Below the pieces are notes generated by a model. That model ran no database searches and was not told where the DNA came from. It saw only the letters and a list, made by a program, of their open reading frames with translations. A program made the translations under genes and the position numbers. Below, in pieces: positions 6,801 through 59,659 of a stretch of 64,000 nt of DNA. Position 1 is the first letter of the stretch; every line of letters begins with the position of its first letter. The stretch comes from Protonemura montana. Its lineage: Eukaryota; Arthropoda; Insecta; Plecoptera; Nemouridae. Where the stretch lies: assembly GCA_947568835.1 (NCBI GenBank), contig OX387604.1:19683076-19747075 (forward strand), read 5' to 3'.

Positions 6801-9800
6801 TAAACGCTGATTAAATATGACTAGCCAATATAGTCACACAAGTCTATAAACAGTTTACACGATAGCCTAACCAAACGGTTTGGCAGGTTGGAAACACCGG
6901 TTCTCATGAGATCACCGAAGTTAAGCAACACTGCGCTGGAGCAAGTATCATCAGGGTGACCATCAGACACATGACCAGTTCTGTTCGGGAAAGAGGTAGG
7001 AGGGATGTAAGTTAGTACAGCAACTTCATTCGTCTTGCTTATCAAGCTCGACAGCACAGGATTCGTGGAGGAATCCTGTTCTTCGCATTGCACAGTCCTT
7101 CGGAGAGGACGTTAAACAGGTGGTTCCCTTGGTGCTCTTCGACTGGAGTTGGCTACGTGTCGGCACCGGTTTTCCCCTCCTCCGTTCTAGGTTAGGTTAG
7201 GTACATCATCAAAATCATCATCATCATCGGCTCATTCACTGACGTCATTAGACAAGTGCTACATGGCCAGATGTCAAAACAGTGCATCGCTGCACCCCAG
7301 TAATCAATCAACCATCACAACAGCCTACCAGAAAACACCACAGCCATTCTGAATTCAAAATTGCAAGTATTTAAACTCCTTTGCAACTCATTGCCATCAG
7401 AAAAAATTTAGATTTTTTAGTAAGAAATCCCAGCACTAAATTAAATTAAATTAAATTAAATTAATATTTTTCTAGCTTTGTCCACAAACAAGCCACCGGC
7501 TTATGTGGGATTCACCAGTTATATTTTCAAGAATATTATAAATATGCATCTGTTATTGGAGTGAATAAACAAAAAATCTAAAAATTAATTAATTCGATTT
7601 GTGAGTATTATTACTTACAGAAATCTGCCGGATTGTGATAACTGGGGCATTCCAGGCCGAACTTCTCAAGATATGGAGTCAGTGCTTTAGGCGAGCCTTG
7701 GTAAATACATTGTCCTGCAGTCAGCGCATATAAATGATCGAACATTTCGAAGAGGAGTGCGGATGGTTGATGAATGGTACAAACGATGGTCCGGCCCTCC
7801 ATGGCCAGCATCTTCAGCAATGAGATGCAATGTGAGCAGGAGGAGCTGTCCAATCCCCTACAACAAACATCTCCAGCAATGAGTTTTTTTTTTATTATTA
7901 TTTTAATACCAGATTAATCATCATACAATATGATATTTGGTACGTCAGGTGTTATAAATATCTACAGTAGTTTGGATATTAGAAATTATACATTAAAAGG
8001 GGATACAGTAAAAGTTTGGACAGTAGCATTTGTTTACAAGGAAGGCTTTCAATTTTATTTTAAGCGTTTCAGGTGCTTTAATTGATTGTGTGTCTTCCTG
8101 ATGATTGCAGCTTGAATAGTTTTAGTTTCTTGTCACCTATCTGAGCTGCCCTAGTGTCGAGAATATATTCATCCTCAGATTTTAGGTTTAATTGTCTTAT
8201 ATATATATAATAATATTATAAATGTACAGGCATGGTAGGGCTAAAATGTTTAGTTTCTTGAAGTGCGTTACACAAGTGTCTTTGTAGAATATGTTAGCAC
8301 ATGGGTTTAGGCTGGCGTGATCTAGATATCAAAGCGTTAAAAGTCTTTTTGTGCGATTTGAACCTCCCCAAAGGATGACCCCGTATTGTAGGTTGAATTT
8401 AACGTGTGCGTAATATACCGCTAGCCCTGTTTTTTTGATGTGACACCTCCATAATCTTCTTAACAATAAGATAGCATGCTGCTGCTACTTTCTTTGCTAG
8501 GGCGTTAACATGTAGACCCCAGTCCACAGGAACAGCTGGAACAGCTGTCCCCCACAACAAACATCTTCAGCAATGGATGCAATGCACGCAGGTGAAGGTG
8601 TGATGCTGCAATGATTTGATACTGTGATGCTGTGATTCTGTGACACTGTGATACTTTGATAGTGGGTTGCTTGGCTTGAAACTCACGTGGTGGGCTCGTC
8701 GAGGAAGAGCACCGGAGGATTGCTGATAAGTTCAAGTGCAATTGAAAGTCTCTTTTGTTGGCCACCAGACAGCGAGGAACATCTTGTATGTCTGCAATCC
8801 TCCAGTCCAAGAACTGCAAGGATCTCAGTCACCTGGAACAAGCCAGCTGTTTACCTCTGAATCAACAAGTGCTTTGCTTAGCAACACTAACATTACACAC
8901 ATGTTTTTTCTTCGCTGTATTTGCTTCAGCGAATTAACCAGAGAGTATAGTCTCAACTTTACTCCCAAAAAAAAAAAATTGTCTACTCCCGTTAAGTGGC
9001 TGAACCGATTTTGCTTAAGGGGGTTGAATCGCTTCCAGGTAATCCAGGGGATCCAGGTAACAAAATCCTATTTTTTATTCTTTAATTGGAGTTTGTAAAA
9101 ACTGTCCCAGCAACTATTCTAAATAATATAAAACTGGATACAACTAATAAGGTTGGCTTTTCAAAAAGGTTGGCTTGAGTATTTTTTTATGCGCAGTTTG
9201 ATAGTGTTAACAGGTTGAAGAAATTTGAGATCGCCAGCTGCTACGAAAACTCATTTTTTTTCTGGAAAAACACCGGAAAAGCACCTTGAACAGGCTCTTT
9301 TACAACGTGTGCAACTATAAGACGAAATAATATTTTTGATTTTGAAAAGCGTCAATCTGTTGCCAATAGTGTGATAAGTCGCCTAGTTTTTGTTTCGTAG
9401 CGATCGGACTAGTAGTTTGGCCGTTTAGTTGTATCCAGTAAACCTAGTTATAGACCTGAGCAACACACAGGATTGAGAAGGAAATATTTGGACAGGTAAA
9501 TTAAGAACTAAACGTAATGAATAAGGAAATTTGGATTATATCATATAGCGTTAGGACAACCTCGAAAAATTGGCGTTTTTCCACACACATAATTGTTTAG
9601 TTAGAAAAGACGCCAATTTGTTTGGGGTTATATATTTTCGAAAATACAAAATCTGTTAGTTTTTTAGTTATTGACCCTGATTAGTTTAGTTGGATGCCTT
9701 TGGGATGCTTGGACTAGGTAATTATTTAAAAAAAAAAAAAATTGTTTTTGCAATCGGAAAATTTTCAGGACTGCTCTAACCCTTGATAAAGTAACAGGTA

Positions 9801-48793: not shown

Positions 48794-51700
48794 TCACATG
48801 TATATCTTCCTCAGATCTGAAGGCGAGGTTATCATGTTGCACTGTGGGCACAGCTTCTTGGCACCCTGTAAGACAATCCAAGCACAGGGCAATCTTAGAG
48901 ACAAGACAGAGACACCCTTAGCAAGCTGCACTAGGCCCAGGGTCAACTAGGCTCATAGAGTCCAGATCATGAAACAAGGTATTTTCTTGCACTACGCTAA
49001 GTCAGCATCGCACCAACAAATAAATAGAAACACACTGACAATTCTTAGTGTTTGTGATACAATTGATAAGATTGGATTCAATATTGATTTCAGATTCTCA
49101 CCGATGTTCAATCACAGAACGCGTGTGTTAATAACATATTCTACAGGGCATATCATTGTGATGTTGGCATCAAAAGCTGTAACTCGTGAATTAAGAAAGT
49201 TTGCTTATTCGGCGGTATAACAAGCTGAAAATTTGACCAAATCTTCCCAGAAGTGTAAGGACGTGTTGGAAAAAAGGGGACAAAAATATCATCGGTACAC
49301 CCCCTGAAAAAAGTTAGGAAATTCATATTTTTACAAAAAAAAACGAAAAAAAACATCAGAGCTACGTAATTAATTTAGTTTAAAAGTTACACGGTTCTCC
49401 TTTCCATAAATGAGTTTGGCTAACCCACGGTTACCTCGAACACTATCAAAAAATGTAATTCTGCCATTATATCTAGTCAAAAATGGACAAAATGGACAAA
49501 ATGTAGCAAAAAAGTATCAAAAACTTAACTACACATTACTTCACTCAAGTTTACTGGCTTAGTTAATATCACAAAAAAATCAATTTTGGTATCATCCGGA
49601 AGCTTGGAGCATTGGCTACAAAATAGCAGATGCAGAACTTTGAAAACGCGAACTTCCCTGCGTGCTTTTTTTGATTTCCGTGACTATCCGTATGAGCGTT
49701 CCCCCTTCCCCGTCGTTGGAGGCACGCTAGCTGCTGCCAGTGAGCATGGGCTGTCCTATGCTGGCCTCCAGCGCATTCTCACATACCAATCATCCTTCAC
49801 ATTTGAAGGAATAAAATAAATAATTCTACTGTGTAATCCGCCATTTTGGAGTTGATAATGCTCGACTGTCGCGCCTCATTGTTTTTATAAAAGCCTCGAA
49901 TTGTCTTCATTCTGCTACGAGCATACCTCTGCAGCTGCTTAGTTGAATTGCTAATGGCAATGAACTGAGTCATGTCGATCATTTTCTGGAAAGACAGCCA
50001 ATATTTAGGGGATTCAGACCCTTACTTTTATGCAAAAATGGACATCTTACTTCGTTCATAGTTAGCGAGCGGCAAGCTTAGGGACATAATCTTGGTTAGA
50101 ACTGTAATCCGAACGGGCTTTTGTTGTGCATATTGCACCTTTTTTACTCATTTAGTTTTTAAATATTCTGAGGTTCTATATTTCTTAATCAATTAAAGTA
50201 AAATTATGCCTATGACCAAGAAATGGTCTAACTGCATCCAAGGACTTTTATTAAATTCGAAATTTGAACACTTTTGGAATCCATAACACTCGTTTGAAAC
50301 TTGATATTTAGTTGATTCTTCTTGATATTTAGTTGATTCTTTTTGATATTAAGAAGTGAAAGTGATCATTAATGAGTGAGAAAAGTAATAATTGAGAAAA
50401 TTATACCTATATATTGAGAAAGTGAAGATATCGGCGCACACGATTTGTTGACAGAAATTGACTGCGTAGCTAAGATACCTAGAGCAAGACACTGGAGAAG
50501 TGACTCAGTAAAAACCATGAGTGCCTCTCTCTGGATTAGCTTTGACACTTCGTGTTTGAAAATGTGATCATGAGATTTGTTTCCTCCGTAGCCGGCAGGT
50601 AATTCAGTAGTTGAGATGGCAAGCGAGAGGCATTAAGCACAACTTTCAAGTAGCATGTTCAAATGATTGAATGGTTAGCGCTCAAAAGAGCATTTCAAAG
50701 GCCCAAATTATGTTTTTTTTTCTAATGTGTCTGCTAATGACTATTTTATTAGAGGACTCAGCCCAGCAAAGATTTCAATTTCTTGCTCGAGCCCCAGCGT
50801 GAAATAGAGAATGAAAGCATAAGAATTTGTCGTGAAACATTGGCCCATGTACGGAGTGTCAGGATCTGAAAGTTGTTGATGGCCTTCGTGCTCGGATTTC
50901 GTGGCTGGCCGAGCAGTAATCGTCCTCGCTCAGTCAATCTTCCTTCTATTTGAAAATGATTATCTCTTCCCGCTTGCATATAGATTATGAAACTGAAACT
51001 TTTATGCCGAATTCTGTACTTAAAAGAACACTAGGGCGTTGACTTTTACATTCCAAGAACCACGGAAAATGTGTTTTGAACTCTGGGAAACTAACGAAAA
51101 CCTAATCACGCTGTATGTATTTGTAAAAAGTGTTCCAATTTTCAGGGACCAGCGATAAAAGACAAATGTCAATGAACTTGACGTCTCTGGAGGTTGAAAG
51201 GATCTGCTATCGAATCGCGTTGGTTGAAGAACGGTCTCAGCAATGCGTCCGGTGGGACATGTGGTGAAAGGAGGGGGGGGGGGGGGGGGGGGGGGAGTGG
51301 TGGATCCCCGCCATGAAGGGATTTCCGTTTTATTGACTGGCACGAGTCAAATAATACATTTGCCTGGTATCCTATGCTTTTTATCATATAGTCCTATGCC
51401 TTGTAGTCTAGGAATATCGAGCGGCTATCTCTTCAAATAGAGAAGTTAGGATATTCGGTGTTATATAAAGCTGAAATTTTGATATTATGTGCATAACACC
51501 ATGACACAACTATTGTCACAAACCCGGACAAAAAATTTTCATCGGAAGACATTCAAAAAAATTACCAAAGTCAAAATTTCTTAAAAAATGAAAATTTCTT
51601 AAAAGTTGAATAAGTATGTCATTTTTGAATTTATAAACGTCTAGTTTCCGCAGAAGCCTAGGCATTAATACGTTATATCGATGCCGTTTTTAAAAAACAT

Positions 51701-54700: not shown

Positions 54701-57700
54701 CGTATTAATGCCTAGGCTTCTGCGGAAACTAGACGTTTATAAATTCAAAAATGACATACTTATTAAACTTTTAAGTAATTTTCATTTTTTAAGAAATTTT
54801 GACTTTGATAATTTTTTTGAATGTCTTCCGATGAAAATTTTTTGTCCGGGTTTGTGACAATAGTTGTGTCATGGTTTTATGCACATAATATCAAAATTTC
54901 AGCTTTATATAACACCGAATACGGACACGCCCCTTTTTGCCGTCGATATTCCTAGACTATTGTGTCGTATGCCGTGGAAGGCAGGATACGCACCAGTGTA
55001 TGCAGCCAACATTCCTCGCAATGCACGTGCCAGCAACAAACGGAGATGACCGGCTTCTTGTAGCGCTCCTTGAACACGCAAAGAGAAACACATGTTCAAA
55101 GAAAACGTCAACACTCCAGATTCACGGTGTGTTAAAAAATTCGAATCATTCATTTTTAATTCCTGTCCTCATGCCGAATTGACTAGATTTACTAGAATTG
55201 TCTAGATCCAATTGGAATACACGTTCATAGACTGGTGAATTCATGTAATAACTGAAAAAATGATTCAAATTAACTTCTGCAAGCCATATAACCCACTAGT
55301 ACATTATACTGCACTCCACAGATCAATTGCCCGGCATTAGCTGCGTTTAGAACACAAGACCTTACCATGCAAATCAATTGCCCGGCATTAGCTGCGTTTA
55401 AAACACAAGACCTTACCATGCAAATCAATTGCCCGGCATTAGCTGCGTTTAGAACACAAGACCTTACCATGCAAATCAATTGCCCGGCATTAGCTGCGTT
55501 TAAAACACAAGACCTTACCATGCAAATCAATTGCCCGGCATTAGCTGCGTTTAGAACACAAGACCTTACCATGCAAATCAATTGCCCGGCATTAGCTGCG
55601 TTTAAAACACAAGACCTTACCATGCAAATCAATTGCTCGGCATTAGCTGCGTTTAAAACACAAGACCTTACCATGCAAATCAATTGCCTGGCATTAGCTG
55701 CGTTTAGAACACAAGACCTTACCATGCAAATCAATTGCCCGGCATTAGCTGCGTTTAAAACACAAGACCTTACCATGCAAATCAATTGCCCGGCATTAGC
55801 TGCGTTTAGAACACAAGACCTTACCATGCAAATCAATTGCCCGGCATTAGCTGCGTTTAAAACACAAGACCTTACCATGCAAATCAATTGCCTGGCATTA
55901 GCTGCGTTTAAAACACAAGACCTTACCATGCAAATCAATTGCCCGGCGTTAGCTGCGTTTAAAACACAAGACCTTACCATGCAAATCAATTGCCCGGCAT
56001 TAGCTGCGTTTAGAACACAAGACCTTACCATGCAAATCAATTGCCTGGCATTAGCTGCGTTTAAAACACAAGACCTTACCATGCAAATGAGGCACTTGAA
56101 GCTGTCGTCTATGTGGGTTCTCGAGTCTCCTTCCAGCTCTTTGATCCTTCTTTTCAAGGCGTCAAGCACGTGGTTGCTTGATTGCGGAACACAACCTTCG
56201 TCCATGGGCTCAACACAGCTGTTTGCGTTGCTGGCTGCATTTTCATTGCCTTGATGACTAGATAGAGGTGACTCTGACGACTCGACTTTTATCGATAAGT
56301 CGTGGCTGCCAATCGACGATGACTCCTGCTTTACGTGGAAATTTAAACGTTTGCCTTCTTTACTGGTGGCGCCCATGATTTCTGCTCCCGTGTATGGACT
56401 GTTGGGACAGAAAAATCCATTAAAACGTGTTCCTTCGAGCAGAACAAAAGGAAGAACATTGCGTTCAAGAGTTTTTATTTGGCAACATGTAGATGACCTT
56501 ATGACAGCTTCTCTAAGGGCGGCTCTGTCTTCTTCTTCTTCTGGCCCAGCTGCTATCGTGAGCACTACGTCAGCTTCAGTGTACTGGTTGGGTCCATACA
56601 TGGCAGTGTCCACGACGTCCACCACCAACTCTACGTCTTCGTCCGCAGGACTCGGGCGGTGGTTAGACGTACCCATGCCCGCTCCTGAGGAAATCAAAAC
56701 ACTGTTGATGAATCGGGCTGCCTCGGCTAGTAGGTGGCACCCTCGGCTAGTAGGTGGTACCCTTGACTAGTAGGTGGTCGAGTGAGTCTCGACTACTAGG
56801 TATGCTTCAACAGATAGTGTGAGACTATCTAAGCGGTGGCGGAAACAGAAGCACCGCTGCCACTAGTGCTTGTCTGAGCAAGAGGGGGAGGGGGAGATTA
56901 CTTCGAGCAGCCATGAGAGCAAACGTAACAGAATGAAGAAGATAGATTTGAGATAGTTTGGGGAGGCTTACAGCGAGCTGGGTAAATTGACGATGAATTG
57001 ATTACGATGGTGAATGACCGAAGTGAATGACTAATTTACACGGCAGATTTATGGGGATTGTTTAAGAACAGATGTAATTAGTTTGCGTGATTCAGATACA
57101 TGTTATCAGTGTACTAGCTGGCATAGGTCGGTGGTCCCAACAGGTGGATTGCTTTCTTGAACAAGTTCGATTAAGGTAGATAAAGGTGAACACTATGACA
57201 GGGGTGGAAGAGCTTGTACGTGATATTCACGGGCAAATAAAGGCTGTGAACTGAAAAAACTAGCAAACCTGCAAATCCGCCAACTAGAAGGGAAGAAGTT
57301 CTGATTCTTCTTTGTCCCGCCCATTCATATTCTTCATAGACACTGTCGTCACCTTCCACGTCAACGTTTTCATCTTCTTCTGGGGCTCCACCATGCTTGA
57401 GGGAAAATCAGAACTAGTTAGAAGAGACAATGGCCACGGCAAGGCTAAGCGTAGGCATGTTGAGACGTCGGTAACTCCAAGTTGATACGAATAGTTGGTA
57501 AAAAGATGGCGAAGAAGATGTTACCTTTCGCAAGCAGTTTTCCACATGTACGTTGAGCTCCTCGATGGACCCATGCAGCCTGTCACTACACACGGGGCAC
57601 GTGGTTTCATCCGCCTTGCGTTTGTTGCACTTCTTGATGCGGAGTCGACCTTGTCTGTTTGATTTGATTCGTATGAAGGTCTGTAAGCAAGCAATACGTT

Positions 57701-58531: not shown

Positions 58532-59248
58532 CTGTAAACAAACGCATCACACACTTTTATTAGAGATCCTGAATCACTTGCAATGATGTCAGCACACATA
58601 AATATTCCAGACAAGCTCACAGTTCACTTTGCATGACCTTTTGGTGTTTCCCATTTTATTTAAAAACCGAAGATCAAAGTATAATGAAAAGGAGATGTGT
58701 TTGATACTTGAAGGCTAGTGATTACTGGCCTCTTGTAGGTACGTAATACACAAAGTAAAACAAGAGAGCCCTTGTTGAGAAAGCCCGTGTTGAGAGAGAC
58801 GGCCTTTGACTCAAAAACTTTAAGGAACTTTTAATCAGAGCAGCTAAAATCTTGAGACAATTTTTAACGGTACGATGAAATGACCATCAATGGGATACTT
58901 AGCAAGTCCGAGGAATGTTCTGGATAAAAAGTGCATATTGTTACGTGATCTTTGAGAGACGTTGGGGCCTGCTGATTTTGGCAGGATCGCAATGGCTATG
59001 TACATTTTTAGCTATTGCTTATAGTGCAGATTCAGCGAATACCATGTACTGGGCAATGATCAGATTGCCAAAAGCGCACTGTGGTGTCAACTGGTTTGCG
59101 TATAAAGAGACTGCAGGAAATCGCATTCTTGGCCGTTCGTGTCCTGCCGAAACGTCAGTCAGGGTGTGGCAGGTCGGCGCCTATAAATGGGAGGCCAGCC
59201 AAGAAATGGAGAGTTCCGCACAACATCTGGAGGAACCCGCTTACGGGT

Positions 59249-59652
59249 GTGAGTGCCGTTAGGGCTGGGAGTTCCGGTAGGTCTGTGAGTGCCGGTAGGT
59301 CTGTGAGTTCTGGTAGGGCTGTGAGTGCCGGTAGGGCTGTGAGTTCCGGTAGGTCTGTGAGTGCCGGTAGGTCTGTGAGTTCTGGTAGGGCTGTGAGTGC
59401 CGGTAGGTCTGTGAGTGCCGGTAGGTCTGTGAGTGCCGGTAGGTCTGTGAGTTCTGGTAGGGCTGTGAGTTCTGGTAGGTCTGTGAGTTCCGGTAGGTCT
59501 GTGAGTGCCGGTAGGGCTGTGAGTGCCGGTAGGTCTGTGAGTTCCGGTAGGTCTGTGAGTGCCGGTAGGGTTCTGAGTGCCGGTAGGGCTGTGAGTGCCG
59601 GTAGGGCTGTGAGTGCCGGTAGGTCTGTGAGTTCCGGTAGGGTTCTGAGTGC
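59249..59652 (+). repeat. 18-bp minisatellite (GTGAGTGCCGGTAGGTCT)n, ~22 copies
   Basis: The unit varies at three positions (GCC/TCC/TCT, GTCT/GGCT). Every unit contains GTGAGT on the plus strand, a consensus splice-donor hexamer. The 18-bp period keeps long frames open on both strands, which explains long apparent frames (VSAGRS-type on plus, TDLPAL-type on minus). It lies upstream of the first RNF220 exon found. Confidence 0.93.
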
Positions 59653-59659
59653 CGATATA

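Follow-up and report, generated by a model that had tools for sequence, protein, structure and literature searches.

Minisatellites that carry splice donors are already known from the human genes IFI6, ABCA7 and CBS. The splice-donor minisatellite of IFI6/G1P3 (6-16) was reportedly described by Turri in 1995. The IFI6 unit is 12 bp long, the 130-residue form of the protein arises from the first donor, and the in-frame longer forms have 134 and 138 residues. According to the passage of PMC4526556 on this minisatellite, a pair of repeat units lying downstream provides additional donors, and three mRNAs are made, the 130-residue form being predominant; the 1995 paper is cited there and in PMC2572611, PMC2915984 and PMC3618361.

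In ABCA7, the first GT of the intron 18 VNTR is the canonical donor of exon 18, and the retention of exactly one unit has been seen in 2 ± 1% of transcripts, which are themselves subject to decay. Skipping of exon 19 ranges from 12 to 45% by tissue and climbs with repeat length in cell lines. In one brain area 90% of samples, and in hippocampus 31%, have more of the alternative transcripts taken together than of the canonical one, chiefly owing to skipping of the next exon, and there is no expanded allele among the brain samples of known repeat length (all from the passages of PMC5954066 drawn on here). CBS carries a 31-bp VNTR, c.1444_1467+7, in 16-21 copies (PMC2630376). Because this interval covers the exon end and the first 7 intronic bases, the CBS donors are copied along with the unit; the portions of PMC2630376 that describe the repeat do not report use of the extra donors. 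They do describe a 68-bp duplication of the intron 7/exon 8 junction in which the more distal copied site is strongly favored and the upstream segment is removed.

Here we describe a related array at an exon end of RNF220, found in a 64,000-nucleotide stretch of genomic DNA (the window). As in ABCA7, a tandem repeat begins at a 5′ splice site, and as in IFI6, a minisatellite supplies successive donors. A literature search, which was not aimed at the host species, found no report of an RNF220 donor array among the papers listed.

The RNF220 gene and its RING exons

An earlier note on this DNA had assigned the gene to RNF220, and profile searches bear this out. All three genome matches to PF15926 (the RNF220 domain) fall in the window and pass the cut-off, one of them at the start of “exon 4” (E 9.7e-10). 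The gene lies on the minus strand, with the RNF220 domain in three stretches and a C-terminal C3HC4 RING divided among three exons, and the product of donor 1 matches zf-C3HC4_2 with an E value of 2.6e-13. It is from this RING match that we infer use of the exon end at donor 1. RNF220 appears to be single-copy: the profile search of the genome, in which only the best candidates were scored (so that a diverged copy could be missed), found no other RNF220 copy that might have retained a spliced form, and a second genome search returned nine matches, three in the window and six elsewhere that are weak and RING-like (E 0.01 to 0.17). RNF220 proteins are said, in the passage concerned of PMC10508689, to exist in most arthropods. 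The window also holds a 5S rRNA gene (6871-6989, plus strand, 56.3 bits) and, upstream of the RNF220-domain exons, an 18-bp array of 22.6 copies (59248-59654) that is open in three frames; its unit contains GTGAGT, though on the opposite strand.

A 15-unit array takes in the 5′ splice site

Exon 56684-56080 ends in TGCCTCATTTGCATG, with GTAAGG starting directly after it at 56079, just as the earlier note had described for an exon ending KCLICM. That note's count of about 15 tandem 51-bp units, each with GTAAGG, also held exactly: 15 such donors lie on the minus strand within 56110-55322, and all 14 spacings are exactly 51. Tandem Repeats Finder (TRF) reports the array at 55322-56088 with a period of 51, 15.0 copies, 97% matches and a score of 1457; as a repeat, it is far beyond chance. 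GTAAGG starts 15 of the 15 units, the first at the exon end, and all of the donors read ATG|GTAAGG, so that the array includes the 5′ splice site and carries a donor in each unit, as a splice-donor minisatellite does. One correction is needed, in that the array had been placed directly beyond the exon, whereas it starts nine bases within it, in the sequence encoding KCLICM. A DNA search of the 258-Mb, 34-contig genome, with very common words skipped, found the array in one place. Coordinates are collected in Table 1.

Table 1. Features of the RNF220 donor array and neighboring exons (window coordinates)
Feature	Position	Strand	Content	Basis
51-bp unit, 15 copies	55324..56088	-	ATTTGCATG|GTAAGG...CAATTG; 9 exonic + 42 intronic nt	TRF and unit alignment
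Donor 1	56074..56079	-	GTAAGG at the native end of the exon; 1011-nt intron	
Donors 2-14	starts 56028 to 55416, steps of 51	-		
Donor 15	55360..55365	-	final GTAAGG; predicted insert 714 nt (238 aa); 297-nt intron	
RNF220 “exon 4”	56080..56684	-	605 nt; ends FKCLICM, RING cysteines 1 and 2	TTCCTCAG acceptor and GTAAGG donor by eye
RNF220 “exon 5”	54994..55068	-	75 nt; ERYKKPVISVCCWHVHCEECWLHTL; middle RING ligands	zf-C3HC4_2, E 1.4e-6
RNF220 “exon 6”	48794..48865	-	GAKKLCPQCNMITSPSDLRKIYM-stop; last RING ligands	end computed from translation

The phase of the unit was set in this analysis from the array junctions, which read CTC|ATTTGCATGG ahead of the first copy, CAATTG|ATTTGCATGG internally and CAATTG|ATCTGTGG past the last copy. 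The junctions at the two edges would fit a tandem duplication across a 2-nt AT overlap. The segment past donor 15 ends in CAATTGATCTG and is without ATTTGCATG, and because of this no more than 14 whole units could be inserted.

Predicted products of each donor

The array is open in the frame that continues the RNF220 exon, and both of the other frames have stops in every unit. On paper, therefore, the in-frame length series proposed in the earlier note stands: donors 2 to 15 would insert 1 to 14 copies of a 17-residue peptide, donor k giving k-1 copies (0 to 238 residues in total), while the intron would shrink from 1011 to 297 nt. The number of residues between RING cysteines 2 and 3, with the native cysteine 2 as the starting point, would rise from 12 with donor 1 to 29 with donor 2 and 46 with donor 3. 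The RING profile scan covered 3 of the 15 products (zero, one and two units). The donor 1 product matched positions 1-40 of 40 in zf-C3HC4_2 (50 bits), and the one- and two-unit products matched positions 4-40 (45.9 and 45.2 bits). The nine exonic bases of the unit encode I-C-M of the RING; because each unit regenerates ICM, these one- and two-unit products still match the profile save for the first cysteine, and the insert can be read as displacing the first RING cysteine alone. Retention of the intron would lead to a stop shortly past the array.

Unit variants and chance expectations

Four of the 51 positions vary, all by transitions. Position 16 is silent, with C in 6 of the 15 units, and position 30 is silent and changed in unit 3; position 34 replaces Gly with Arg in units 1, 4 and 8, and position 35 replaces Gly with Glu in unit 9. 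The earlier note was right about the two silent sites and counted one replacement site where we find two. A tendency of position 16 to alternate in the later units hints at the spread of two-unit blocks. The unit allows 18 silent transitions, 32 replacements and 1 stop. The probability of at least two silent changes among four is 0.44, and a 9-nt donor free of variants has a probability of 0.45. The variants carry no sign of selection, the silent-versus-replacement test having little power.

We also asked how often a donor would be followed by an open frame. In the 214 kb sampled, with the RNF220 array excluded, 140 of 249 GTAAG sites were open over the next 42 nt in the matching frame; multiplied by 1/3 for a triplet period, this gives a chance of about 0.19 for triplet length plus open frame, a combination that is unremarkable and makes weak evidence.

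What could rank the donors

All 15 donors have one 9-mer in common, which scores 6 of 9 against the generally known U1 consensus; of three other RNF220 donors chosen by eye for comparison, two have the same score and the third scores 7. Donors 2 to 15 also have a near-identical upstream unit in common. Given the common 9-mer and the near-identical upstream units, nothing intrinsic puts donor 1 ahead of the rest. When donors are duplicated experimentally, the one closest to the acceptor is often favored; a literature search on competition between duplicated donors gave nothing relevant among the matches listed. Fifteen donors with the same core in one intron amount to a natural competition experiment on how distance alone ranks equal donors.

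RNA structure was rejected as a selector of donors. Predicted accessibility ranks of the donors were middling, at 0.25-0.70 among all 9-mers of the folded pre-mRNA stretch, with no donor standing out; under other settings the order changed, with donor 15 top at 0.012. The unit folds no better than shuffled sequences (one unit, z -0.39, with 64 of 200 shuffles as good; four units, 46 of 200 as low).

Minisatellites elsewhere in the genome

The 214-kb sample consisted of the window and 15 stretches whose positions were chosen randomly in the first part of the contigs tried. In this sample TRF identified 21 arrays, none overlapping another, with a period of 12-200 and at least 4 copies. With the RNF220 array counted, 9 of the 21 have a triplet period, 13 an open frame on some strand and 3 a donor-like word. 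A hand-counted subset with a period of at least 20 and at least 5 copies comprises nine arrays, three with a triplet period (the RNF220 array included). The genome is thus array-rich, with roughly one array every 25 kb, and at this density many arrays should meet exon ends by chance.

A genome-wide pattern census of donor-bearing arrays gave 424 + 1241 matches versus 168 + 143 for the backward control. Single arrays are counted many times in these figures, which also include simple and telomere-like tracts, and the matches listed cover about 100 of the 1,665 places; the census shows that such arrays exist, nothing more. Among the matches listed was a 46-bp minisatellite family with GGTAAGG in each listed unit, a donor-bearing repeat dispersed over three places on one contig (G000:C1:234524, 1040929 and 1124854). 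A 128-bp donor-bearing array in L027, inspected by eye, had no obvious frame entering the array. TTAGG-like tracts with GGTAAGG variants occur at about 29.0-32.5 Mb of the 33.1 Mb of G000:C1 and fit an arthropod-type telomere repeat. The mitochondrial contig points the same way: judged by eye, a TGA and two AGA codons of COX1 agree with genetic code 5, and the ORFs in 9,000 of its 15,885 bases run ND2-COX1-COX2-ATP6-COX3-ND3, the gene order of the arthropod ground plan. Together with the TTAGG-like tracts, this suggests that the host is an arthropod.

Two further loci attracted our attention. At L023:1-1526, a 70-bp array of 21.7 copies has a unit that includes GGTTCGATCC, which we take to resemble a tRNA T-arm; ARAGORN found no tRNA in L023. 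On the large contig C4, a COX1 stretch (G000:C4:5760925-5762262) scores 455.5 bits, exactly the score of the mitochondrial copy at C34:3504-4841, and a second long COX1 stretch lies about 15 kb further on (C4:5776811-5777755); either mitochondrial DNA was recently inserted into the nuclear genome or the assembly is responsible.

Discussion

Of the three options left by the earlier note (a length series of RING insertions, a buffered donor or a neutral minisatellite), the evidence favors the last, combined with minor leakage, because the genome is rich in arrays, the frame argument is weak and the human analogues yield one- or two-unit extras. We hold with reasonable, though limited, confidence that a recent neutral minisatellite took in the RNF220 5′ splice site, that donor 1 is the one mainly used and that the next donors give minor in-frame products. 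Several points weigh against this reading: the donors are equal in sequence and in predicted accessibility, experimental duplication of donors often favors the copy closest to the acceptor, the more distal site wins in the CBS junction duplication, and the alternative ABCA7 transcripts can outnumber the canonical one. The array, its frames and the RING match of the donor 1 product are observed; how the array arose and which donors are used we infer as follows. A 51-bp segment made up of the last 9 exonic and the first 42 intronic bases would have been tandemly duplicated at the 5′ splice site, and the duplicated segment would have expanded, minisatellite-fashion, to 15 copies. Donor 1 is the presumed ancestral site because an uninterrupted RING comes from it alone, and it most likely still yields the main mRNA; some leakage probably occurs at donor 2, and perhaps at donor 3, and would yield minor mRNAs with 51 or 102 additional in-frame bases. 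Retention of the first donor, together with leakage products that remain in frame, would explain why the expansion was tolerated. The array resembles a few known human repeats, and we therefore regard it as probably an expansion that arose by chance and has mild side effects on splicing, not as a new device.

An unlikely alternative, and the one to which we give most weight, is that the donor nearest to the acceptor is preferred, so that most mRNAs carry many or all of the 14 units, with up to 238 more residues in the RING. The donors are indeed identical, the frame is open throughout, and the intron from donor 15 (297 nt, versus 1011 nt from donor 1) has what is likely the ancestral length. 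However, such products would load the RING with up to 28 added cysteines and 238 residues in a gene that appears to be single-copy, and the donors reported for IFI6 and ABCA7, in the passages cited above, are those of the first few units only. It is less probable again that the array alters the surrounding splicing more than it does donor choice, for example through skipping of the 75-nt next exon, a triplet multiple, to give an in-frame RING-null protein. This idea draws on ABCA7, in which longer repeats go with more skipping of exon 19, at 12 to 45% by tissue versus 2% for one-unit retention (PMC5954066); the ABCA7 unit has another sequence, however, and the lack of expanded alleles in its length-known brain samples also counts against the parallel. 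If the ABCA7 pattern does hold, skipping of this exon, with the predicted loss of the middle RING ligands, may outweigh donor choice.

We give little credence to a functional length series under selection, in which chosen donors would yield RING isoforms with 1-14 inserts and graded ligase activity. The triplet unit, the open frame, the rebuilding of ICM in every unit and the match of the one- and two-unit isoforms to RING profile positions 4-40 are what it would predict; against this, triplet length plus open frame has a chance of about 0.19, and two replacement and two silent variable positions show no sign of constraint, in a comparison of little power. A donor-choice rheostat, in which each step would move the first RING cysteine 17 residues further with the rest of the RING in register, is just as doubtful; if true, it would make RNF220 an E3 ligase tuned by variable copy number, differing among individuals and tissues. 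The internal CGCAG sites, whose CAG the earlier note had suggested as a possible acceptor in each unit, are very improbable as acceptors for 26-nt microexons. ACGCAG does close the first half of the unit after a U-rich stretch (3 of 15 units inspected; the position is invariant), but whether one, two or three 26-nt pieces are chained, the reading is KCLICM-LMPGN-stop, with the stop within the first piece, so that these acceptors fail on frame, cannot lengthen the series and would yield truncated mRNAs only. Least credible of all is that the spare donors protect the splice site from mutation: all 15 donors are intact, but intact donors are expected anyway (P 0.45), and every substitute donor would put residues into the RING.

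The RNF220 array adds an apparent invertebrate case, in frame and within a zinc-binding domain, to the few human repeats in which a splice site has become part of the array. The ABCA7 unit is 25 bp long, out of frame and present in about 12 to 427 copies in people (PMC5954066, in the passages cited), whereas the RNF220 unit is 51 bp long, in frame, present in 15 copies in one assembly and inclusive of nine exonic bases. The 31-bp CBS unit, unlike that of RNF220, is not a triplet multiple. IFI6 is a small interferon-induced protein with a shorter repeat unit, whereas the insert in RNF220 sits within a zinc-binding domain. What is new is thus an in-frame unit inside a RING, in an apparent arthropod.
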